NCBI RefSeq assembly: GCF_038397775.1
Contig: NZ_CP151650.1
Location: 2,852,001 to 2,916,000, forward strand
Length of the DNA: 64,000 bases
Reading direction: 5' to 3'
From: Pseudomonas sp. RC10
Lineage (GTDB): Bacteria; Pseudomonadota; Gammaproteobacteria; Pseudomonadales; Pseudomonadaceae
Positions 4,537-34,988 of this stretch are shown in pieces. Below the pieces are notes generated by a model. That model had not been told where the DNA came from. It ran no database searches and saw only the letters and a program-made list of their open reading frames with translations. Numbering within the stretch: the first letter of the stretch is position 1; each line of letters opens with the position of its first letter. The position numbers were made by a program, and so were the translations under genes.

Positions 4537-5337
4537 ATGCAGATTTCCTTGAAAGGCCAGGTCGCGCTGGTAACCGGTGCCAGCTCTGGCTTGGGCCTGG
4601 GCGCGGCCCGAGGGCTGGCGGCTTCCGGCGCCGCGGTCGTGGTCAATTACCACTCCCAACCCGAACCCGCAGAAAAACTGGTAGATGAGATATTGAAAGC
4701 AGGCGGCCAAGCCATTGCCGTCCGCGCCGACGTGTCGAAAGAGGAGGAGGTCGAGGCCCTGTTCGCCGAAACCCTCAAGGCGTTCGGTCGGCTGGACATC
4801 CTGCTCGCCAACTCGGGCCTGCAAAAAGATGCCCCTATTGCCGAACTCAGCCTCGACGACTGGAACACCGTGATCAGCGTCAACCTCACCGGCCAGTTTC
4901 TCTGCGCCCGTGCGGCGTTGCGCCAGTTCGCCAAACAGGAAATCCGCCCCGAGATTTCCCGCGCACTGGGCAAGATCATTCATATGAGTTCCGTGCACCA
5001 GGTGATTCCTTGGGCCGGGCATGTCAACTACGCCGCCTCTAAAGGCGGAGTGGACCTGCTGATGCGCTCCATTGCCCAGGAAGTCGGCGAGCAGCGCATC
5101 CGCGTCAACAGCATCGCGCCGGGAGCCATTCGCACGGCGATCAACACCAAGGCCACCACCGGCGATGCTGAGAAAGCACTCCTGAAACTGATCCCCTACG
5201 GCCGCGTGGGCGAAGCCGAAGACGTCGCCAACGCCGTGGTCTGGCTAGCCTCCGACGCCTCCGATTACGTGCACGGCACGACGCTGTTCATTGATGGCGG
5301 CATGAGCCTGTACCCGGAGTTCCGCAACAATGGCTGA
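4537..5337 (+). CDS. SDR-family oxidoreductase, glucose 1-dehydrogenase-like
   Basis: 266-residue classical short-chain dehydrogenase. The dinucleotide motif TGASSGLG is at residues 13-20, an ANSG variant of NNAG at 91-94, the catalytic Ser at 151/152 and YAASK (Tyr165, Lys169) are all present. The C-terminal FIDGGMSLYPEFRNN resembles bacterial glucose 1-dehydrogenases, which oxidise beta-D-glucose with NAD(P)+. The GH15 gene starts inside its last codons (8-base overlap), so the two are co-translated. A glycosidase releasing glucose beside a glucose-oxidising SDR makes sense, but the substrate is inferred from family and context only. Confidence 0.85.
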   Translation: MQISLKGQVALVTGASSGLGLGAARGLAASGAAVVVNYHSQPEPAEKLVDEILKAGGQAIAVRADVSKEEEVEALFAETLKAFGRLDILLANSGLQKDAPIAELSLDDWNTVISVNLTGQFLCARAALRQFAKQEIRPEISRALGKIIHMSSVHQVIPWAGHVNYAASKGGVDLLMRSIAQEVGEQRIRVNSIAPGAIRTAINTKATTGDAEKALLKLIPYGRVGEAEDVANAVVWLASDASDYVHGTTLFIDGGMSLYPEFRNNG

Positions 5338-7186
5338 GCCTTCCCGCACGCAACACGACCCGCGTGACGAGCCGCAGAATGCCATCGAGAACCACGGCAT
5401 CATCGGCGACATGCGCAGCGCCGCATTGGTGGCCGATACCGGCAGCATCGACTTCTGCTGCTGGCCGGATTTCGACAGCCCGAGCATCTTCACTGCGCTG
5501 TTGGACACCCCGGACGCCGGGATCTTCCAGCTGTCGCCCATCCTTCCCGACGCACGCCGTCAGCAGTTGTACCTGCCTGAAACCAATGTGTTGATGACCC
5601 GCTGGATCGCCAAGGATGCCGTGGTCGAAGTCACCGATCTGATGCCCATCGCTGACGAAGTCGAGGACCTGCCACGGCTGGTGCGGCGCATTCACGTGCG
5701 CCATGGCACGACGAAAGTGCGGATGCTGTGCCGCGTCCGCCACGACTACAGCCGCGCGGAAACCACCGCGCAGATGGAGGGCAAGGACGTGCGCTTCGAA
5801 GCCCAGGGCCAACCGGCCATGCGCCTCTGCGCTACGGTGGACCTGTCGCTGGACGGACACGCCGCCATTGCCGAATTTGAGATGAAGCAGGGCGATATCG
5901 TCGAATTCATGCTCGGCGGGGCGGACGACGAAAACGTCCGCGCCACGCAATGCGATTGCGACCTCAAAAGCACCGTCGATTACTGGCAGCACTGGAGCCG
6001 CCACTCCAATTACCGGGGTCGTTGGCGCGAGACCGTCAACCGCTCCGCGCTGGCCCTCAAGCTCCTGACCTCGCGCAAGCATGGCGGCATCGTCGCGGCG
6101 GCCACGTTCGGGCTGCCGGAAGAAGAGGGCGGCGAGCGCAACTGGGACTACCGCTACACCTGGATTCGTGACGCGTCGTTCACGGTCTACGCCTTCATGC
6201 GCCTGGGCTACACCGACGAAGCCAACGCGTTCATGCACTGGGTCCGCGAGCGCATGGGCGACTGCTGCGACGACTCGACCAAGCTCGGCATTCTCTACTC
6301 CCTCGCGGGCCAGGAGGAACTGCCCGAAGAAAACCTGACGCACCTGTCCGGCTACGGCGGCGCGACCCCGGTGCGCATCGGCAATGAAGCCTACAAGCAA
6401 ACGCAGCTCGATATTTACGGCGAGCTGCTGGACGCCGTGTACCTGGCCAACAAATACGGCGAGGCCATCTCCCACGAAGGCTGGAAGCACGCCACTCGAT
6501 TGGTCAACGAACTCTGCGAAAACTGGCGCAGCAAGGACGTCGGCATCTGGGAAATGCGCGGCGACGACCAGCATTTCCTGCACTCGCGACTGATGTGCTG
6601 GGTGGCGCTGGATCGCGCGCTTCGTCTGTCGTTCAAGCGTTCGCTGCCTGCGCCGTTCGAGCGCTGGACCAACGAGCGTCAGGCCATTCACGACGACATC
6701 TGGGAAAACTTCTGGGACGCCGACCTGGGGCATTTCGTCCAGCACAAAGGCAGCAAAAACCTCGACGCCTCGATGCTGCTCATGCCGCTGGTGCGGTTCG
6801 TCGGCGCCAGCGACCCGAAATGGCTGCAAACCCTCGACGCCATCGAACGCACCCTGGTGCGCGACGGCATGGTCTTCCGCTACCGCAATGACGATGATTA
6901 CGGCGACGGCCTCGACGGCCTCGACGGCGATGAAGGCGCGTTCGTCGCCTGCTCGTTCTGGTACGTCGAATGCCTGGCCCGCGCCGGGCGCGTGGAGCAG
7001 GCGCACCTTGAATTCGAACAGTTGCTGCGCTACGCCAATCCTTTGGGCCTCTACGCGGAAGAGTTCGACACCCATGGTCATCACCTCGGCAACACCCCGC
7101 AGGCGCTGAGCCACTTGGCCCTCATCAGCGCCGCCACCTTCCTCGACCGCAAACTCGAAGGCAGCCAGACCCTCTGGCAACCCTGA
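5330..7186 (+). CDS. Glycoside hydrolase family 15 protein (glucoamylase/trehalase-like)
   Basis: 618 residues, typical for the bacterial GH15 group. It has an N-terminal beta-sandwich (about 15-225) and an (alpha/alpha)6 barrel (about 235-605). The family motif WDYRYTWIRDASF lies near 270. The general-acid region GIWEMRGDDQHF and the late LYAEEFDTHG with GNTPQALSHLALI are present. No signal peptide is seen, so it should be cytoplasmic. Family members hydrolyse alpha-glucans, oligosaccharides or trehalose; sequence reading alone does not decide which. It is coupled to the upstream SDR, and a DUF2945 gene follows 21 bases downstream. Confidence 0.9.
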   Translation: MAEPSRTQHDPRDEPQNAIENHGIIGDMRSAALVADTGSIDFCCWPDFDSPSIFTALLDTPDAGIFQLSPILPDARRQQLYLPETNVLMTRWIAKDAVVEVTDLMPIADEVEDLPRLVRRIHVRHGTTKVRMLCRVRHDYSRAETTAQMEGKDVRFEAQGQPAMRLCATVDLSLDGHAAIAEFEMKQGDIVEFMLGGADDENVRATQCDCDLKSTVDYWQHWSRHSNYRGRWRETVNRSALALKLLTSRKHGGIVAAATFGLPEEEGGERNWDYRYTWIRDASFTVYAFMRLGYTDEANAFMHWVRERMGDCCDDSTKLGILYSLAGQEELPEENLTHLSGYGGATPVRIGNEAYKQTQLDIYGELLDAVYLANKYGEAISHEGWKHATRLVNELCENWRSKDVGIWEMRGDDQHFLHSRLMCWVALDRALRLSFKRSLPAPFERWTNERQAIHDDIWENFWDADLGHFVQHKGSKNLDASMLLMPLVRFVGASDPKWLQTLDAIERTLVRDGMVFRYRNDDDYGDGLDGLDGDEGAFVACSFWYVECLARAGRVEQAHLEFEQLLRYANPLGLYAEEFDTHGHHLGNTPQALSHLALISAATFLDRKLEGSQTLWQP

Positions 7187-7580: not shown

Positions 7581-9005
7581 CTACTTCACCCGCAACTCAT
7601 ACCCCACCGGCAACGTCTCCAACGTAAACCGATCCGCAATCATCCCGCAGTAACTCGTCCGCGCCAGATACGCCCCTGGCCCTTTCAAATACGCATCAAT
7701 ATCCTGCACTTCCTCACACAACTCAAACGTCCTTCCCTTCAGCAAGCCACTGGCCTGGGCCGAGCGCAACGCGCCGTTGGGGGTCCAATCGGCGATGATG
7801 AGGGCGCCTTCGGGGGCGGAGATTTCGTAGCTGCGCACGAACTCTTCGGCGGAGCGGTCGGTCAGGTACGGCACCATGAAGTAGTGAATGTCGTCGCGAA
7901 ACGGCAGGGTTTCCTTGTGCACGGGCAGCTGAATGGCGCCACTGGCGTAAACGGCGAACACCGCGAGGATGACCACGGGCGCGGCGAGGGGCGAGGCGGT
8001 GGCAAGACCTGTGGCGTTGCGCGGCAGCAGGGCGTACAGCTGAATCACGCCGATGATGCTCAGCAGCACGGCCCCTGGCAGGAAGAACGTGAAGCGGTCG
8101 GTGACGTTGTAGGAGACCGCGAAGATGAAGTTCATCATTGCCGCCGCCCACAGCACCCGCACCGCCGGACGCTTGGGAAACAGAAGCAGGCCGACGAGTT
8201 GCGGGCCGATCAGCGACAGCATCAGCAACACCACCGAGTTTTTCTCGTGCCACATGTCGTCGAAGCGGAACAGCGAGCCTTGCCAGCTCTGCTCGGTGGT
8301 CCGGTCGGGGATGCCGATCAGGTAACGATGGCCGATGTCGTAGAGGCTCAGCCCGTTATGCATTTCGTTGATGACGCCGGGGATTGCCACCCCGAAACCC
8401 ACCACGAAACCCGGCACGGTGATGAGAATCCGCGCCTTGTGCTGCCAGAGCATCTGCACGTACAGCGGGAACAATACGATGAAGGTCAGTTGGTGAATCG
8501 CAGCGGCGAGGCCGGTCAATACGCCGATCAGGAACAGCGCGGGCATCACGCCCAGTCGCTGTTTGTCGTTGAACTGGATCATGTAGGCGAAGATCACCAG
8601 CACCGTGTGCAGGATGTAGACCTCGGCCTTGGTCGAGACCCAGAACACGCAATGACACAGCACGGCAGCGGCCACGGCGATCAGCGCCTGCTGGGTGGTG
8701 GCGCCGACCCCTTTGGCCAGGCGGTAGATCGCCCAGCCCAGCGGGATCAACAACAGCGAATTCATGAAGCTCAAGACCAGCGGCCCGAAGCCGGCAAACA
8801 GCGCGGTGCTCACGAATAGATAAAGCGGGTGGTCCAGCGGGCCAAGGGTTTGGCTGAAGAAATGGCCTTGGGACGCATCGGCGAGGAACATGCCGTTGTC
8901 CATCCACTGGATGGGCCCGCTTGACGCGAGAAAGCTGGCGAGAATCGCCCCGATCATCAACAGCGCGGAAATCAGCATTGATCGATTGCGTACGGCTGCC
9001 ACCAT
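7581..9005 (-). CDS. Polytopic GT-C-type glycosyltransferase (candidate arabinosyltransferase)
   Basis: 474 residues from the chosen start. About 10-11 hydrophobic helices run to residue 380, followed by a soluble C-terminal domain of about 100 residues. The first extracytoplasmic loop carries acidic residues ([17 protein letters not shown]), as in polyprenyl-phosphate-sugar-dependent GT-C enzymes of the PMT/DUF2723 type. The ATG at 9005 has AGGAG eight bases upstream, whereas the longer open frame to 9101 would run into the preceding gene. It is the last gene of the operon and the likely user of the lipid-linked sugar made by the upstream genes. The acceptor is unknown. Confidence 0.72.
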
Positions 9006-9066
9006 GAGTTGCACTCCTGTCCCTGTTTTTGCATGACGCGCAGCCGAACGGCGGTGCGCGTGAACC

Positions 9067-10053
9067 TTACTGAACCGCTTCGCGCCGAGGCGCCGTTTCA
9101 CCTTTGAGCTTGAACAACATGACTGCGCCGATAGCCACGGCGAACCACAACGTCGCCAATCGAATCAGCACCGTCGCGGCCACGGCGTCGGCACTGTTCA
9201 TGCCTTTCCACACCAGCAGCCCGACCATCACGGCTTCTGCGCCACCGAGGCCGCCCGGCATGAAGCTCACCGCCCCCGCGAGCATCGCCAAGGCGTACAC
9301 GAACACCGCGAAGGTCAGCGGAATCTCGGCGCCCATCCAGTGCAGAATCCAGTCGAAGGCCAACGCTTCCGCGCTCCAGGCCACGACGCTCAACGCGGTC
9401 AGGCCGAGCATCAAGCGCAGGCGGTGACATTGCTGGGCATGCACCAGCACTTGCAGCAGATGACGTAACAGACCGATGACCTTGCCGCCCTCGGTGGGCA
9501 CCATCAGCATCAGGCGCTCCAGCAAGCGCCGCTGCGACAGCACCAGCAGACCCACCAGCACCAGGCTGACGGCGACCACGATCATCGGCATCGCCTCGGG
9601 GTACAGCGACAGGCCGAACAGGGTCAGCAGCACCACGGCGAACAGGTCCGACAGGCGCTCGCTGAAGAACGCCGCGAAGCTTTGCGGGTAGGGCACGCCC
9701 CAGCGTTTCAGCAGTACGCCGCGCAACGCTTCTCCGGCCTTACCGGGCGTGGTGGTCAGGGCGAACCCGGCCAGGTAAATGTTCAGGCTCGGGCGCCACG
9801 GCATGGGATGACCCAGCACCTTGAGGTACGCCTGCCAGCGCACGAAACGCAGGCCGTAGTTCACCGACGACATGAACAGCGCGATGACGATGCCGATCAG
9901 GCCGACTTCGCGCACGGCAGCCCCCACCGCCTGCCAGCCGCCCCACAGCGAGAAGGCCAGATAACCCAGCGCCGAGCCCACCACTGACAGCACGACAGCG
10001 CGGTAGCGCCAGCCCGAGAGCTGGACCGGTTCTTCGGAGGCTGTCGCGTTCAC
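9067..10053 (-). CDS. UPF0104 / LPG-synthase-TM-family membrane protein
   Basis: 328 residues with about eight transmembrane helices. [20 protein letters not shown] followed by FFSERLSDL and [18 protein letters not shown] are hallmarks of the lysylphosphatidylglycerol-synthase transmembrane (UPF0104) family, which is fused to synthases in MprF and stands alone next to many glycolipid genes. In this operon a role in moving a polyprenyl-phosphate-sugar across the inner membrane is an attractive inference, not shown. The start overlaps the upstream SDR stop by 4 bases; 61 bases separate it from the GT-C gene. Confidence 0.85.
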
Positions 10054-10805
10054 AGGTTCAGCCTCTTGAACACCGGCTGCGGGATCGAGCGGATGATCAG
10101 CATGATCAAGGCCCAGAACCCTGGCGCGTACAGGGTCGGCACTTTGTTAGCGATGCCTTTGACGATCCGTTGCGCGACCTGTGCCGGTTGCGCCAACAGC
10201 GCGGCGGGCAGCGACAGGCCTTGGGTCATCGGGGTATCGACGAAGCCCGGCTTGATCGTGGTGACGTGTACGCCGAGCTTGAACAGCCGTGCTTGCAGCC
10301 CTTCGCAGTAGGTCGAGACCGCTGCCTTGGCGCTGCCGTACAGGTAGTTCGACGGTCGCCCGCGATCCGCCGCCACCGACGAAATGATCGCCAGGCTGCC
10401 ACAGCGCTGGGTCTCGAATTGCGTTGCCAGCACCGTCAACAAGGCGATCACCGACGTGCAATTGTTGGCGAATTCACGCAAGGCCAGATGCACATCGCGT
10501 TCGCAGGCTTTCTGGTCGGGGAGGGTGCCGTGGGCGATCAGCGCGATGTCGATCTGGCCCAGGGCGGTCAGGCAGCGGCCCATCATCAGCGGGTGGGCAT
10601 CGATGTCGTTGGCGTCCATTTCATGCAGTGTGACGTTCTTCGCGCCCCGGGCCTTGAGATCTGCGGCGGTCTGTTGAAGTTTGTCGACGTTGCGCGCGAC
10701 CAGAAAGAAATCGCTGCCCTCGGTGGCCCACAAACGGGCGCAGGCGGTGGCGATGGCCGATGTCGCGCCAATGATCAGCACTTTTTTCATGTGGGGTGTG
10801 TTCAT
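10050..10805 (-). CDS. SDR oxidoreductase, DprE2-like (decaprenylphosphoryl-2-keto-erythropentose reductase type)
   Basis: 251 residues. The nucleotide-binding motif is GATSAIATACARLWA rather than the usual TGxxxGxG, which is characteristic of DprE2-type and related SDRs. The catalytic ISS and YGSAK (Tyr and Lys) motifs follow, and there is a C-terminal hydrophobic tail (FWALIMLIIRSIPQ) that fits a lipid substrate. In mycobacteria DprE2 reduces the 2-keto intermediate made by DprE1 to polyprenylphosphoryl-D-arabinose. Its start overlaps the stop of the DprE1-like gene by 4 bases, so the pair is tightly coupled. Confidence 0.82.
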   Translation of the reverse strand: MNTPHMKKVLIIGATSAIATACARLWATEGSDFFLVARNVDKLQQTAADLKARGAKNVTLHEMDANDIDAHPLMMGRCLTALGQIDIALIAHGTLPDQKACERDVHLALREFANNCTSVIALLTVLATQFETQRCGSLAIISSVAADRGRPSNYLYGSAKAAVSTYCEGLQARLFKLGVHVTTIKPGFVDTPMTQGLSLPAALLAQPAQVAQRIVKGIANKVPTLYAPGFWALIMLIIRSIPQPVFKRLNL

Positions 10806-12118
10806 AGCAGCACGCGGCTCCAGAAACGGGACATCAGAGAGGGATCGCGCAACGCTTCCAGTCGCTCCCAGTCGGGGTACGCCCGACGAAAGTCCGCGCC
10901 GCTCATATGGGCATCCTTGGCCGGATACAAGCGGCCTCCCGCAGCCCGAACGATGTCATCCAGGCGCGGGAATACAACGTCTTCCAGGTGTTCGCTCTGG
11001 GGGAAATCCAGCGCCAGCGAGGTGCCCGGCATCGGGAACGACAGCAAGCCCGGCGAGCGTACGTCGCCGCAGCGCTTGAGCACCGCGAGAAACGAGCCCT
11101 GCCCCGCATCGGCGATGGCGCGCAACAACTCACCCATTGCCGCTTCGGCGTTGGCGGTGGGAATCACGCATTGATACTGCTGAAACCCCCGGCGACCGTA
11201 GATGCGGTTCCAGTGCAGGATGCGATCCAACGGGTAGAAAAACGGTTCGTAGGCGCTGCGCCCTGGTGTGCGCTTGCTTGGATGCACGCGCCAATACAGG
11301 TTGTTGAAGGCGCTCAGGGACAGCTTGTTGATCAGCGACACCGGCGGCGTGACCGGGATGCTCAATTTGGCGCGAGACTCGGTAGCCAGCGACCCGTACT
11401 GCGCGTGATCGCCGACGATGAACACCCCGCGCCCGGTTTCGGCGCCTTTGGCCAGGCAATCGACCCAGGCGACGCTGTACTCGTGTTTGTCGTCCAGTTC
11501 ATCCGAGAGCGCGAAGAATTCGGCGAGGTTGGCGAAGCGCACGGTGGTGGTGTCGATCTGGCTGGCGCGGATCGGCATCAATTGGATTTGCGCCCAATGA
11601 ATGATCCCGGTCAGCCCCAGACCGCCAATGCTGGCTGCGAATAATGACGCGTTGACGCTGGGAGAACAGACCATCTCCGGCTGGCCATGGCGCAGCAGAC
11701 CGAAGCTGCGCACGTGACGGCCAAAGGTGCCGCGCACGTGGTGATTCTTGCCGTGTACGTCGTTGGCGATGGCGCCGCCGACGGTGGCGAATTGGGTGCC
11801 GGGGGTGACCGGGAGAAACCAGCCGTGGGGAATCGCGACGCTCAGGACTTCGGCGAGGGTGATACCCGTTTCGACCTTGAGCACGCCGTTGTCCCAGTCG
11901 GCCTCGATCAGCCGGTCCAGCGAGCGCATGTGCAGCACCTGATCGCTGGCCGCGAGGCAACTGTCGCCGTAGCTGCGGCCATTGCCATAAGGCAGGCTGC
12001 TGCGGTGATCATCGATCACCCGGTCGAGGTGCGCGGGCAGGTCGTCGAGCCAGACACAGCTGTGACCCCGTTGCGGACTCTGGGGGAAACGGCCCCAGGA
12101 ATACAGGGGTGTGCTCAT
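10802..12118 (-). CDS. FAD-linked oxidase, DprE1-like (decaprenylphosphoryl-ribose 2'-oxidase type)
   Basis: 438 residues. The FAD-binding segment PYGNGRSYGDSC starts near residue 43, with VGGAIANDVHGKNHHVRGTF in the middle of the FAD domain and the C-terminal LYPAKDAHMSGADFRRAYP typical of the DprE1/GlcD-like vanillyl-alcohol-oxidase fold. DprE1 oxidises polyprenylphosphoryl-beta-D-ribose at C2'. The true start is the ATG at 12118, which overlaps the UbiA stop codon (ATGA); the longer open frame running to 12808 lies inside the UbiA gene and is not real. The neighbours on both sides are the other two enzymes of the same pathway. Confidence 0.84.
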   Translation of the reverse strand: MSTPLYSWGRFPQSPQRGHSCVWLDDLPAHLDRVIDDHRSSLPYGNGRSYGDSCLAASDQVLHMRSLDRLIEADWDNGVLKVETGITLAEVLSVAIPHGWFLPVTPGTQFATVGGAIANDVHGKNHHVRGTFGRHVRSFGLLRHGQPEMVCSPSVNASLFAASIGGLGLTGIIHWAQIQLMPIRASQIDTTTVRFANLAEFFALSDELDDKHEYSVAWVDCLAKGAETGRGVFIVGDHAQYGSLATESRAKLSIPVTPPVSLINKLSLSAFNNLYWRVHPSKRTPGRSAYEPFFYPLDRILHWNRIYGRRGFQQYQCVIPTANAEAAMGELLRAIADAGQGSFLAVLKRCGDVRSPGLLSFPMPGTSLALDFPQSEHLEDVVFPRLDDIVRAAGGRLYPAKDAHMSGADFRRAYPDWERLEALRDPSLMSRFWSRVLL

Positions 12119-13566
12119 GCGGCGATCCAGAACATCAACAGGAAAATTGCGCCGATCAACTGGCTGGTGCGGTCGCGGATGGCGAACACCACCGGGTCTT
12201 CGTTCATCTGCCCGCGATGGGTCAGCATCCACACGCGGGTGACCCAGAACAGCAGCAGCGGGCACGCCAGCCAGATCACGTGAGGCGTGACGTACAGCGC
12301 GGTGGTCTTGGCGTCCTGGATGTACAGCGCCAGGACCATCACCGCCAGGTAGCCGGACGACGCGCCGAGGGAGGCGATCATGTCCAGGTCGCCGGGGTAA
12401 TAGCCGCGTCCTCGGGCGAAGGTGTTCACTTCCCGAGCGCGGGCGTCGCGCAGCTCGGCGTAACGCTTGACCATCGCCAGGCTCAGAAAGATGAACATCG
12501 AGAACGCCAGGATCCAGAAGGTCAACGTCAGGTTGAACGCGGCAACCCCGGCGATGATGCGTGCGGTGTAAAGCATTGCCAGCGCGATCACGTCCCAGGC
12601 CATCAGCCGTTTCAGCTTCAGCGAGTAGGCCAGCGTGAGGCCGTAATACGCGGCCATGACCGCCGAGAACTGCCAGGGCAACAACAGCAACGCGGCGCCG
12701 AAGGCGGTGAGCAATAGCGTCGGGACGAGAATCAACCCGGCCTTGATCGACAGCCGCCCGCTGGCGAACGGGCGGTTGCATTTGCTCTTGTGGTGGCGGT
12801 CGTCGCACAGGTCCAGCAGGTCATTGAGGATGTAGACGCTGGAGGCGCACAGGCCGAAACAGAAGAAGGCGAAGACCCCGTCGCGCATCAGGTCGAATTG
12901 CGCCAGGCGGTGGGACGCCAGCAGTGGCACGAAGATAAGGGCGTTTTTCAGCCACTGGTGCATGCGCAGCGCCTTGCGCCAATCCCGCAGGCTGGCGGTG
13001 TTGGTGCGAATCGTCGGTTCGACTTGGGTCATGGCCTCGACGCGGGACTCAACCCCTGAATCCGGGTTTACCACATAGGCTTGGCGGGAGACTTTCCAGA
13101 TCGGCAAATCATCTTTCGAGTTGCCGATGTAATCGAAGCCGCCTTCACCGTAGTGCGCAACTAAGAGGTCACGTTTGTTATTGCCGGACAAGTTGCGATT
13201 GGCATTGGACGCTAATACCAGATCAAACAGTTGAAGGTGTTCGGCAATCTTCTCCGCCAGACTGACATGGCTCGCCGTGGCCAATACGATCATCCGTCCC
13301 TTGGCTCTTTCGGCCTGGATCATTTCAATGATCTGGGGATCGTACGGTAATACGGATACATCGATTTCCGTCCCCAGCGCCAAGCCTTCCTTGAGCGCCG
13401 CCTTGCCTTTGAGCAACCACCGAAGGAGGCTGAACGCCTTGAGTGGCGTACCTCTGACAAAGGCCATGGCCGTTTCCATCAGCAGATCGGAACGTAACAA
13501 TGTGCCGTCCAGATCAACGACCAGCGGGGGAAACGTTTCCTGAACTCTTCCCTGAATTCTTGCCAT
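12115..13566 (-). CDS. HAD phosphatase-UbiA prenyltransferase fusion (polyprenyl-phosphate phosphoribosyltransferase type)
   Basis: 483 residues with two domains. The N-terminal HAD domain (about 14-165) has DLDGT with Asp18/Asp20, a Thr/Ser motif ATASH and the late GNSKDD. The C-terminal UbiA domain (about 195-480) has an Asp-rich motif NDLLDLCDDRHH (248-259) and a second conserved region around DVIALAMLYTARIIAG. Mycobacterial Rv3806c, a UbiA protein, joins decaprenyl phosphate to phosphoribosyl pyrophosphate; the product then needs a phosphatase. The fusion would supply both steps. Start ATG at 13566 with AAAGGAGC eight bases upstream; first gene of the five-gene operon. It has a ribose-phosphate rather than quinone context. 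Confidence 0.85.
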   Translation of the reverse strand: MARIQGRVQETFPPLVVDLDGTLLRSDLLMETAMAFVRGTPLKAFSLLRWLLKGKAALKEGLALGTEIDVSVLPYDPQIIEMIQAERAKGRMIVLATASHVSLAEKIAEHLQLFDLVLASNANRNLSGNNKRDLLVAHYGEGGFDYIGNSKDDLPIWKVSRQAYVVNPDSGVESRVEAMTQVEPTIRTNTASLRDWRKALRMHQWLKNALIFVPLLASHRLAQFDLMRDGVFAFFCFGLCASSVYILNDLLDLCDDRHHKSKCNRPFASGRLSIKAGLILVPTLLLTAFGAALLLLPWQFSAVMAAYYGLTLAYSLKLKRLMAWDVIALAMLYTARIIAGVAAFNLTLTFWILAFSMFIFLSLAMVKRYAELRDARAREVNTFARGRGYYPGDLDMIASLGASSGYLAVMVLALYIQDAKTTALYVTPHVIWLACPLLLFWVTRVWMLTHRGQMNEDPVVFAIRDRTSQLIGAIFLLMFWIAA

Positions 13567-13876
13567 GTTCGGGTGCTCCTTTGGGGATCAGCCCGACTAT
13601 AAACAAAAATGTTTTCTCGAAACTTCATTTAAATTAAAGGGTCTCGCGCGGTGCGACGAGTGTCTGACGTCAGAATAAAACAGCGATTTAAATCGGCACT
13701 ATGCAGTGCAAATGTCTCAAGGGTGAAACAGCGCGCGGCGATTAATTGGCGACCAACTAATGACGTACGCCCGGGCGGTTGCGTGGGTGAAATCGTGCGA
13801 ATTGGCCCTGGCGGCGCTTCGGGCCAGTGTCATAATGACAACGTTTTTTCGGCGCTTAACCGTGTTCTGGAGTTCT
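13567..13876. promoter_or_regulatory. Divergent intergenic region, arabinosyl-donor operon / norR
   Basis: 310 bases, noticeably AT-rich near 13600-13700. It contains a perfect 12-bp palindrome TCTGACGTCAGA at 13663-13674 and another, CGATTTAAATCG, at 13684-13695. Either could be an operator for the leftward operon. A NorR-type site at 13830-13840 is listed separately. Confidence 0.5.
13830..13840. promoter_or_regulatory. Candidate NorR-binding site (GTCA-N3-TGAC)
   Basis: GTCATAATGAC is an exact match to the inverted core GTCA-N3-TGAC described for enteric NorR enhancer sites. It lies 36 bases upstream of the norR start codon. Only one copy is seen, whereas the E. coli norVW enhancer has three, so autoregulation rather than activation of a neighbouring operon is the likelier role. 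Confidence 0.55.
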
Positions 13877-15436
13877 ATGACCCACCCCTTGCTGCTGGCC
13901 CTCGTGCCCCTTGTGGCGGACTTGTCCCGCGATTTGCCAGACCAGGAACGTTATCGGCGGCTGTTGCGCTCGCTGCGACAGTTGCTGCCCTGTGATGCCG
14001 TCGCGTTGCTCCGGCTTGAGGAGGACGTGCTGGTGCCGTTGTCGGTCGAGGGATTGAGCCCTGACACCCTGGGCCGCCGCTTTCGGCTTGGCGAGCACCC
14101 GCGGCTGGACATCATCGTGCAAAACCGCGAGCCCACGCGCTTTTCCACCGACTGTGACTTGCCGGACCCCTACGACGGTCTGGTAGACGGCGTGCATGGG
14201 GACCTCGAAGTGCACGATTGCCTCGGCTGTCCGCTGTACGTGCAGGACACGTTATGGGGCGTCATCACGCTGGACTCGCTGGACCCGGCGCGTTTCGGCA
14301 GCGCTGATCTACGTGATCTGCAAGCGTTTGCCAGCCTCGCTGCGGCGACGGTCATGGCCAGCGAACGCATGAGCCTGCTGGCCCGCAGCGTCGAAGATCA
14401 GCGGCAACTGGCTGAAGTCTACAAACGCGCTGCGGGAGGGCGCGGGCCCCGAGAGTTGATTGGGCAAAGTGCGGTGCATCGCCGCTTGCAGCAGGAAATC
14501 CAGCTGGTGGGCAACAGCCCGCTGACGGTGTTGATCACTGGGGAAACCGGGGTCGGCAAGGAGCTGGTGGCCGAAGCCATTCACCTGCAATCGCCTCGTG
14601 CCCAGAAGCCGCTGATCAGCCTCAATTGCGCCGCGCTCCCTGAGTTACTGGTGGAAAGCGAACTGTTTGGCCACGTCAAAGGCGCGTTTTCGGGGGCCAT
14701 CAGTGGGCGCAGCGGCAAGTTCGAACTGGCCGACGGGGGCTCGATCTTCCTCGACGAAGTAGGGGAGTTGCCGCTGCCGGTGCAATCCAAGTTGCTGCGG
14801 GTGTTGCAGAGCGGGCAATTGCAGCGGGTGGGGTCCGATCAGGAGCATCGCGTGGACGTGCGCATCATCGCCGCGACTAATCGTGATCTCGCGGAGGAGG
14901 TGCGCGCCGGGCGTTTCCGGGCTGACCTCTATCACCGTCTGAGCGTGTACCCGTTGGTGGTGCCGCCCTTGCGCGAGCGAGGCCGGGATGTGTTGCTGCT
15001 CGCCGGGTATTTTCTGGAAGAGAACCGCGCGCGGATGGGCTTGCGCAGCCTACGGATGAGTCCCGAGGCGCAAGGGGTGTTGCTGGGTTATTCATGGCCG
15101 GGCAACGTGCGCGAACTGGAGCACCTGATCAGCCGCGCTGTGCTGAAAGCGCTGTCGGCCCACAGCGAAAGGCCGCGCATTCTGACCATCGAGGCGCCCG
15201 CGCTGGGGCTGGAGGATGAATCGCCCGTCGCCCTCGGTACGCCATCGCTGCTCGCGGACGTGCACCCGGTGGTCAAGCCGGGCGAAGGGCTGAAAGAGGC
15301 GGTCGACGGGTTTCAGACGATGTTGATCAACGAGGCGTTGAGTCGGCACAACGGCAAATGGGCCGAGGTGGCGCGAGAGCTGAACCTGGACCGCGCCAAC
15401 CTCAGTCGGTTGGCGAAGCGGTTGGGGATCAGGTGA
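13877..15436 (+). CDS. norR: Nitric-oxide-responsive sigma-54 activator NorR
   Basis: 519 residues: GAF sensor domain (about 20-170), AAA+ domain (about 192-425; Walker A GETGVGKE at 222-229) and a Fis-type helix-turn-helix end (WAEVARELNLDRANLSRLAK). The residues I recall as non-haem iron ligands in E. coli NorR have counterparts here: Arg76 (GEHPR), Asp100 (DPYD), Cys115 (VHDC) and Asp133 (TLD). The sigma-54-contacting loop reads GAFSGA (269-274) in place of the consensus GAFTGA. Start at the ATG of 13877 after GGAG, not the longer open frame from 13760. No flavohaemoglobin or norVW target lies nearby, so its targets are elsewhere. Confidence 0.92.
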   Translation: MTHPLLLALVPLVADLSRDLPDQERYRRLLRSLRQLLPCDAVALLRLEEDVLVPLSVEGLSPDTLGRRFRLGEHPRLDIIVQNREPTRFSTDCDLPDPYDGLVDGVHGDLEVHDCLGCPLYVQDTLWGVITLDSLDPARFGSADLRDLQAFASLAAATVMASERMSLLARSVEDQRQLAEVYKRAAGGRGPRELIGQSAVHRRLQQEIQLVGNSPLTVLITGETGVGKELVAEAIHLQSPRAQKPLISLNCAALPELLVESELFGHVKGAFSGAISGRSGKFELADGGSIFLDEVGELPLPVQSKLLRVLQSGQLQRVGSDQEHRVDVRIIAATNRDLAEEVRAGRFRADLYHRLSVYPLVVPPLRERGRDVLLLAGYFLEENRARMGLRSLRMSPEAQGVLLGYSWPGNVRELEHLISRAVLKALSAHSERPRILTIEAPALGLEDESPVALGTPSLLADVHPVVKPGEGLKEAVDGFQTMLINEALSRHNGKWAEVARELNLDRANLSRLAKRLGIR

Positions 15437-30886: not shown

Positions 30887-30963
30887 AGGCACGTAGCTCA
30901 GTTGGTTAGAGCACCACCTTGACATGGTGGGGGTCGTTGGTTCGAGTCCAATCGCGCCTACCA
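30887..30963 (+). tRNA. tRNA-Val(GAC)
   Basis: 77 nt including an encoded CCA end. The acceptor arms AGGCACG/CGCGCCT pair except for one A-C mismatch; the D arm is GCTC-AGTTGGTTA-GAGC, the anticodon arm is CCACC-TTGACAT-GGTGG with anticodon GAC, and the T loop is TTCGAGT. Identical in sequence to the copy at 34912. Its 3' 50 bases are repeated at 33829-33878, marking it as an integration site. Confidence 0.96.
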
Positions 30964-34911: not shown

Positions 34912-34988
34912 AGGCACGTAGCTCAGTTGGTTAGAGCACCACCTTGACATGGTGGGGGTCGTTGGTTCGAGTCCAATCGCGCCTACCA
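34912..34988 (+). tRNA. tRNA-Val(GAC), second copy
   Basis: 77 nt, identical to the copy at 30887-30963, with anticodon GAC and encoded CCA. It is followed by the native flank and a terminator, and no insertion is present. The pair was presumably one tandem duplication before the element separated the copies by about 4 kb. Confidence 0.96.

Follow-up and report, generated by a model that had tools for sequence, protein, structure and literature searches.

A five-gene operon in Pseudomonas sp. RC10

The window analyzed here is a stretch of 64,000 nucleotides from Pseudomonas sp. RC10 (C1:2852001-2916000), whose genome consists of one contig of 6.71 Mb. It contains five adjacent genes, named A to E in the order of transcription, which code for a HAD-UbiA fusion protein, a DprE1-like flavin adenine dinucleotide (FAD) oxidase, a DprE2-like reductase, a UPF0104 membrane protein and a predicted GT-C glycosyltransferase. 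The initial annotation, made from the sequence, had described these genes as an operon resembling the mycobacterial polyprenylphosphoryl-D-arabinose pathway. All five were recovered with the families and the order it had given, as intact minus-strand open reading frames (ORFs) spanning positions 13566-7581; the A/B, B/C and C/D junctions overlap by exactly 4 bases each, as had also been noted (Table 1).

Table 1. Genes of the operon and adjoining features, with positions in the window
Feature	Position	Strand	Remarks
A, HAD-UbiA fusion	12115..13566	-	483 aa; HAD N-terminal
B, DprE1-like FAD oxidase	10802..12118	-	438 aa
C, DprE2-like SDR reductase	10050..10805	-	251 aa
D, UPF0104 / LPG_synthase_TM membrane protein, candidate flippase	9067..10053	-	328 aa
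E, predicted GT-C glycosyltransferase, remotely TMEM260-like	7581..9005	-	474 aa from corrected ATG
GAF-AAA-Fis sigma-54 activator, divergent neighbor	13760..15436	+	PF00158 228 bits, PF01590 57 bits
Perfect 12-base palindrome TCTGACGTCAGA ahead of the operon; may be an operator	13663..13674		

The mechanically assigned GTG start codon of E (position 9101) is probably too early: an ATG at 9005 is preceded by AGGAG, 8 bases upstream, and several relatives start nearby, so this ATG was preferred. With this start, E begins 61 bases after D. By the E protein, the closest titled relatives are Pseudomonas sp. SLFW (98%), UBA1879 and P. bohemica.

Predicted donor enzymes

Protein A matched UbiA (72.5 bits) and HAD (40.7 bits) in Pfam and the HAD-UbiA model NF006088 in NCBIfam (662 bits, cut-off 351), a model whose name states only UbiA prenyltransferase. 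The UbiA half scored 144 bits with decaprenyl-phosphate phosphoribosyltransferase (DPPR synthase), compared with 27.6 bits for UbiA and 27.2 bits for CyoE. By profile score, the UbiA domain thus does not group with the quinone enzymes that the initial annotation had named as the competing assignment (144 vs 28 bits). The three DPPR synthase models gave 144, 131 and 100 bits, none reaching its cut-off. The only PDB relatives of A at E<=0.001 were two DPPR synthase entries, the best being 8j8j (E=1.8e-20).

Residues N248, D249, D252 and D256 of A, the N/D/D/D motif of cytoplasmic loop II, align with the motif of the solved DPPR synthase. They correspond, by motif and number (offset one) rather than by alignment, to N247, D248, D251 and D255 of Citrobacter youngae ORF15, and D18, the HAD nucleophile, is numbered alike in both proteins. 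According to PMC11127046, these five ORF15 residues were tested by mutation. A is a probable polyprenyl-phosphate phosphoribosyltransferase plus 5'-phosphatase.

Protein B matched FAD_binding_4 in Pfam (60.5 bits), and its best solved relatives were nine DprE1 chains (E from 1e-61 to 2e-64). Compared with chain 4aut, it retains K401 and the HGKNHH motif at position 122, residues with catalytic roles. Residue 369 of B is an Ala where the aligned mycobacterial chain has a Cys, the residue attacked by benzothiazinones.

Protein C matched adh_short in Pfam (105 bits) and PRK07102 (345 bits, cut-off 267). Its best PDB match was DprE2 (E=9.5e-31), and it carries the SDR motif Y156xxxK. The D-arabino identity of the sugar would follow from B and C. 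Profile scores, PDB relatives and catalytic residues all support the earlier proposal that the operon supplies a lipid-linked pentofuranose donor by a route like that of Rv3806c, DprE1 and DprE2.

Family and predicted fold of the two membrane proteins

Protein D belongs to the LPG_synthase_TM family of Pfam (PF03706, 170 bits), whereas for E no family was found in Pfam or NCBIfam at E<=0.001. Sequence searches of solved structures with the D and E profiles found nothing. The AlphaFold model of E, built with 31 sequences, had a mean predicted local distance difference test (pLDDT) score of 86.1 and a predicted TM-score (pTM) of 0.88. Foldseek returned 13 matches at E<=0.001, all of them oligosaccharyltransferase/PglB, ArnT, ALG9/ALG12 or Pmt4 entries, with ALG12 (TM-score 0.61) and ArnT (0.59) on top. 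The next, weaker matches were PimE, AftA, ALG3 and ALG6, and rank 19 was a glycosylphosphatidylinositol (GPI) transamidase chain. The predicted fold indicates that E is a GT-C enzyme, which agrees with the family first proposed for the fifth gene.

By sequence, E appears to be remotely TMEM260-like. With PF11028, the window protein scored 19.1 bits (cut-off 24.2), and 21 of the 31 relatives matched at E<=10, the best at 1e-5. Alignment of the E profile with PF11028 proteins of other gammaproteobacteria by hhalign gave a probability of 93.6% over 158 columns, and paired the Asp of a DNG/DDG motif, PLY, AEVY and a later His.

Related loci

A search of 149 Pseudomonas genomes with A gave matches in 38 at E<=0.001; HAD-UbiA proteins scoring at least 577 bits occurred at 24 places, including that of the window. 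Gene architectures were mapped by tblastn in the window and in 26 fetched loci, leaving out the weaker A matches. The 26 loci are places and not genomes (G054, G085 and G115 have two each); 23 carry HAD-UbiA, one of these being cut by a contig end, and 3 carry UbiA.

Nine loci, class I, have the arrangement A-B-C-D-E with no GtrA detected. Four loci, class I' (L051-L054), have GtrA-A-B-C-D together with a PMT_2-type GT-C protein; this transferase has an unusually low GC content at third codon positions (GC3, 0.45-0.48), and a GtrII-type gene lies upstream in three of the four. In the nine class II loci (L040, L041, L044-L049 and L055), A-B-C is accompanied by an NAD epimerase-type protein and an amine-oxidase-type flavoprotein, with GtrA in 8 of 9 and no D; the extra proteins perhaps modify arabinose further. 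Three loci, class III, called PA7-like from gene content alone, encode a UbiA protein without HAD, a DUF212 (PAP2-like) protein, GtrA, B and C. Of the two remaining loci, L050 has A-B-C-GtrA and L056 (G054:C17) has A without B-E, with no other queried pathway gene in its 19 kb stretch. The A-B-C donor module is thus combined with differing flippase candidates and differing GT-C proteins. By profile, E is unrelated to the large membrane proteins tested from classes II and III (probabilities 0.03-1.2%), and its match to the class I' GT-C type is weak (35%). In a tree of 39 A proteins, the 23 of class I form one group (support 83/100).

Genome contigs were scanned with the E profile, which gave 47 loci: 45 from titled Pseudomonas, one from a gammaproteobacterial assembly and one from Nitrospira moscoviensis. 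The Pseudomonas titles include P. syringae, P. viridiflava, P. cichorii, P. congelans, P. tremae, P. amygdali, P. graminis and P. abietaniphila. Neighborhood conservation, a check that had been suggested for this operon, gave the following: A to E stand together in 38 of the 47 loci, 8 have E alone and one, in Nitrospira, has A and E. With A to E arranged identically in those 38 loci, the five-gene arrangement is far beyond chance. The same profile, run against 369 gammaproteobacterial genomes, found the source genome plus two weak matches. In a survey of 398 Pseudomonas genomes, in which for most genomes no more than 4 candidates were scored and A was counted at E<=1e-15, E was found in 32 and A in 56: both in 24, E alone in 8 and A alone in 32.

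In N. moscoviensis (L104), A lies directly before E; no B, C or D was found at the locus and the genome gave no DprE1 match. This links the GT-C enzyme to the polyprenyl-phosphoribose product and suggests that the Nitrospira pair transfers ribose instead of arabinose.

Proposed pathway

We propose, with a probability of about 0.75, that the operon encodes a self-contained system for pentofuranosylation outside the cytoplasm, by which lipid-linked D-arabinofuranose is made, flipped and transferred. The UbiA domain of A would join phosphoribosyl diphosphate (PRPP) to polyprenyl phosphate, giving polyprenyl-P-ribose-5-P, which the HAD domain would dephosphorylate. B and C would then invert C2, yielding polyprenyl-phosphate-D-arabinofuranose. 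The UPF0104 protein would flip this lipid-linked sugar to the periplasmic face, where the GT-C protein would move the arabinofuranose onto a putative envelope acceptor. What the analysis shows directly is which genes are present, in what order and how widely they are conserved, the profile-level family membership of A to D, catalytic residues that are kept, a GT-C fold predicted for E and an upstream element retained across loci. We infer each reaction from homology, residues and context, and likewise that the product has the D-arabino form, that UPF0104 flips it, and that there is an acceptor and what kind it is.

Several observations weigh against this proposal. None of the three donor enzymes reaches the curated NCBIfam cut-off of its mycobacterial namesake: A gave 144 of 207 bits for DPPR synthase, B 359.5 of 500 bits for the DprE1 equivalog and C 188 of 250 bits for DprE2; the proteins tested from class III loci were below their cut-offs too. 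The TM-scores of the E fold matches are moderate (0.43-0.61 in the 13 best). The E gene persists in 8 of 47 loci, in genomes without detectable HAD-UbiA and DprE1, so that E may not be dedicated to arabinose. In all four class I' loci UPF0104 is accompanied by GtrA, so that UPF0104 need not be the flippase. Finally, no acceptor was found, and no biochemical evidence for the operon was seen.

Upstream element and neighboring genes

In 39 of 39 loci the motif TYTGRCGYCA, the core of TCTGACGTCAGA, lies 105-112 bp ahead of A; it was not found before the Nitrospira A. For the loci with E alone the search used a less strict pattern and covered a longer stretch; TGRCGYCA was present in all 8, 116-420 bp ahead of E. 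In the whole genome, TTYTGRCGYCA occurs 23 times, compared with 13 for the reversed control pattern. A regulon search placed 14 of these 23 sites inside ORFs (heuristic call); at the other sites no further envelope operon was conspicuous.

A homolog of the divergent sigma-54 activator was found near the E gene in 35 of the 47 loci; it is probably a conserved neighbor outside the pathway. Many of the 47 loci also share MFS, NRAMP, GH15 and SDR neighbors. The recurrence of the activator and of these genes suggests vertical inheritance of the operon.

GC content and GC3 of the five genes (GC3 0.80-0.86) are similar to those of the neighboring genes. A plasmid search with the E protein gave no match. 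Comparison of the HAD-UbiA protein with phage records gave one, a 30% match to the UbiA part; this relative is encoded at 4916-5731 of MT837543.1, an unannotated 6.6 kb record from human faecal samples. Recent mobile transfer of the operon is not supported. Two tRNA-Val(gac) genes lie about 4 kb apart in the window (30887-30963 and 34912-34988).

The GT-C gene without donor genes

The eight loci with E and without A-D are L084, L089, L090, L098, L099, L101, L103 and L106. Whole-genome searches of these eight Pseudomonas found no HAD-UbiA or similar UbiA protein (26-36 bits in six, nothing in two) and no DprE1 (at most 43 bits); DprE2 was not searched, since SDR proteins are common. PF03706 proteins occur in all eight genomes, with only two 29% relatives of the window UPF0104 protein among them.

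In the tree of E, the E-only state requires 6 changes, at least 5 of them forced by well supported branches. L084 retains a stretch of 113 bases, 89% identical to the leader plus the opening 38 coding bases of A, and leader remnants of 46 and 40 bases are left in L089 and L106. A-D were therefore lost from these three loci. The other five adjoin different neighbors, and there the direction of change is taken from the tree.

Rates of change in the lone E gene were compared leaving out L073, as were the invariant columns and single positions of E discussed below. The close E-only pair L098/L099 differs by 11 nonsynonymous and 30 synonymous changes (p=9e-10 against equal rates), a ratio of nonsynonymous to synonymous rates (dN/dS) of 0.125; the lone E gene was thus under purifying selection in the one close pair tested. 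The ratio was 0.226 for L090 against L101, 0.04-0.17 for 13 full-operon pairs and 0.13-0.40 for E-only against operon proteins, with the highest values in L103 and L106. The low ratios favor continued function of the lone E. Drift is favored by the higher mixed ratios, by the longer branches of most E-only rows compared with their kin in the E tree, and by one broken copy: among the 8 E-only genes of the 398-genome survey, one (G080) is split into two frames.

Altogether 142 columns are invariant in the 38 operon E proteins. For each of four, F40, Q172, F376 and W407, a change is seen in 5 of the 7 E-only groups. None of 20000 shuffles gave as many columns changed in 5 of 7 groups, in a test that treats the groups as independent although L090 and L101 are sisters, the tree forces at least 5 changes and columns may differ in mutability. 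The Nitrospira E retains Q172 and F376, and not F40 and W407. The repeated changes may reflect either a changed donor or relaxed constraint before decay.

One tentative way of joining these results, to which we give less than even odds, is that E swaps donors: the acceptor would stay constant and the sugar would be changeable, with UPF0104 as a dedicated polyprenyl-phosphate-arabinofuranose flippase. We suggest it because in several lineages the donor genes went, while E, the upstream element and the signs of purifying selection stayed. Repeated change at F40, Q172, F376 and W407 would be expected if E had moved to another polyprenyl-phosphate sugar with the same acceptor.

It is rather unlikely that E instead serves as a general transferase outside the cytoplasm, with some main donor other than the arabinose lipid, A-D being an optional add-on. 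The occurrence of E without HAD-UbiA in 8 of 47 loci, and in 8 of the 32 E-positive genomes among the 398, agrees with such a role, as do the purifying selection in the close pair and the upstream element kept in all eight loci. However, the long branches of several E-only rows, their repeated alteration of otherwise invariant positions such as Q172, and the split gene fit a function that was changed or lost after donor loss. A general transferase also fits poorly with the 369 gammaproteobacterial genomes, which gave only the source genome and two weak E places, and with Nitrospira, which couples E to HAD-UbiA.

The proposed flipping step

Under the proposed pathway the UPF0104 protein is a candidate flippase for the lipid-linked sugar, by its family and context. 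PF03706 includes the flippase domain of MprF, and COG0392 is described in PMC5898192 as a predicted flippase family in glycosylation. D was present, and GtrA was not detected with three GtrA queries, in the fetched stretches of 9 of 9 class I loci; SMR proteins were not searched. In class I loci the A-B-C genes are accompanied by UPF0104, and in those of classes II and III by GtrA, a pattern suggesting that UPF0104 is a substitute flippase. The earlier suggestion is supported to the extent that a separate membrane protein is a candidate for moving the donor across the membrane.

A variant in which the donor pathway is the same, a GtrA or SMR protein encoded elsewhere flips its product and UPF0104 aids the transferase or carries out another lipid step seems to us improbable. 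Two GtrA genes do exist elsewhere in the source genome, but both adjoin, as judged by eye, their own GT2-type and large membrane-protein genes. Likewise, GtrA lies directly upstream in the four class I' loci that also have UPF0104, whereas the nine class I loci, the MprF flippase domain in PF03706 and the predicted flippase family COG0392 speak for UPF0104.

The putative acceptor

Arabinosylation of type IV pilin, as in P. paraeruginosa, is distinctly unlikely. According to PMC11127046, Harvey et al. 2011 predicted that a P. syringae B728a candidate, a possible counterpart of the window operon, serves pilin. However, the only PF00114 pilin gene found lies at 5.95 Mb, about 3.1 Mb from the operon, in line with the first observation that no pilin gene is adjacent. 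This gene is followed directly by a pilB-like gene (by eye), with no tfpW-like gene between them, and by profile E is unrelated to the GT-C protein of class III (probability 0.75%; TfpW itself was not compared).

O-antigen was also considered as acceptor: an ABC-transporter polysaccharide cluster with gmd/rmd-like genes, as judged by eye, and with its own GtrA is present elsewhere, and nothing ties the operon to it.

A reading in which the UbiA domain forms a quinone, or some other small prenylated molecule, on which the redox pair then acts is very improbable: A belongs to the UbiA superfamily, but the DPPR synthase model gives it five times the bits of the UbiA model, two further genes of the genome score higher as UbiA-family members (255 and 202 bits; untyped), and the HAD, DprE1 and DprE2 partners would be left unexplained.

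Comparison with known systems

The results point to the mycobacterial D-arabinofuranose route as a self-contained, long-kept Pseudomonas operon outside the pilin and O-antigen loci. They offer a candidate, a UPF0104-family flippase, for a weakly known step, and the lineages with the GT-C gene only are natural comparisons for the acceptor and for sugar-choosing residues. Many of the operon-bearing species are plant-associated, judged from their names. The P. syringae group are important plant colonizers, and a surface pentose could matter for recognition by phages, plants or competitors.

The biochemistry proposed in the initial annotation holds up in the main, but the novelty it implied was overstated, since the same kind of system is described in PMC11127046. 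Kelly et al. 2024 (PMC11127046) described systems of HAD-UbiA, flippase and GT-C proteins with optional epimerases, linked arabinofuranose to DprE1/E2 homologs, listed further candidates with unknown glycans, and mentioned a P. syringae B728a candidate with a C-terminal phosphatase domain; in A of the window, HAD is N-terminal. Homologous systems in P. syringae B728a and 1448A, possible counterparts of the window operon, are reported in PMC12369383. Our literature search, which left most subscription journals outside, turned up no report of UPF0104 as a flippase for pentofuranose or of a TMEM260-like transferase encoded in an operon of this kind. New in the present analysis are the combination of UPF0104 with a remotely TMEM260-like GT-C protein, in an operon that stands alone and has long been kept, and the finding that the transferase repeatedly outlived its donor genes, which complicates reading E as a dedicated arabinosyltransferase.

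With the "three-component" pentofuranose system of PMC11127046 the operon shares a donor synthase, a flippase candidate and a GT-C protein encoded together, and epimerase genes. The small EmrE-like or GtrA-like flippase gene of those systems was not found in the window operon, which holds no gene besides the five and has PF03706 instead. In C. youngae O1/O2 (PMC11127046), ORF15 is HAD-UbiA, ORF14 the flippase, ORF12 GT136 and ORF13 the epimerase. In both systems a HAD domain is fused to the N-terminal side of UbiA, the catalytic residues agree by motif, and epimerase genes set the sugar. The C. youngae genes lie in an O-antigen locus, however, whereas the window operon stands alone, with DprE1/DprE2 in place of the ORF13-type epimerase, UPF0104 in place of a small transporter called MATE family in that paper, and a remotely TMEM260-like GT-C protein (GT136 was not compared). 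For the window E, a donor different from that of TMEM260-like proteins (PF11028) would be expected.

P. paraeruginosa PA7/Pa5196 (PSPA7_6245-6251), compared by description only, also has a UbiA phosphoribosyltransferase, lipid-linked arabinose as predicted donor and extracytoplasmic transfer (PMC11127046, PMC12369383). It differs in its separate phosphatase, in TfpW being encoded with pilA and in the pilin acceptor; the source genome of the window has a fused HAD and, near pilA, no transferase. The class III loci, PA7-like in gene content, use GtrA and a DUF212 protein.

The mycobacterial pathway (Rv3806c/Rv3807c/DprE1/DprE2/Rv3789) has homologous UbiA, DprE1 and DprE2 proteins, and the same order of chemistry would be expected in the operon. 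The Pseudomonas system departs from it in having HAD in place of an unrelated phosphatase, UPF0104 where Rv3789 is proposed, one GT-C protein instead of several arabinosyltransferases, and scores below the equivalog cut-offs.

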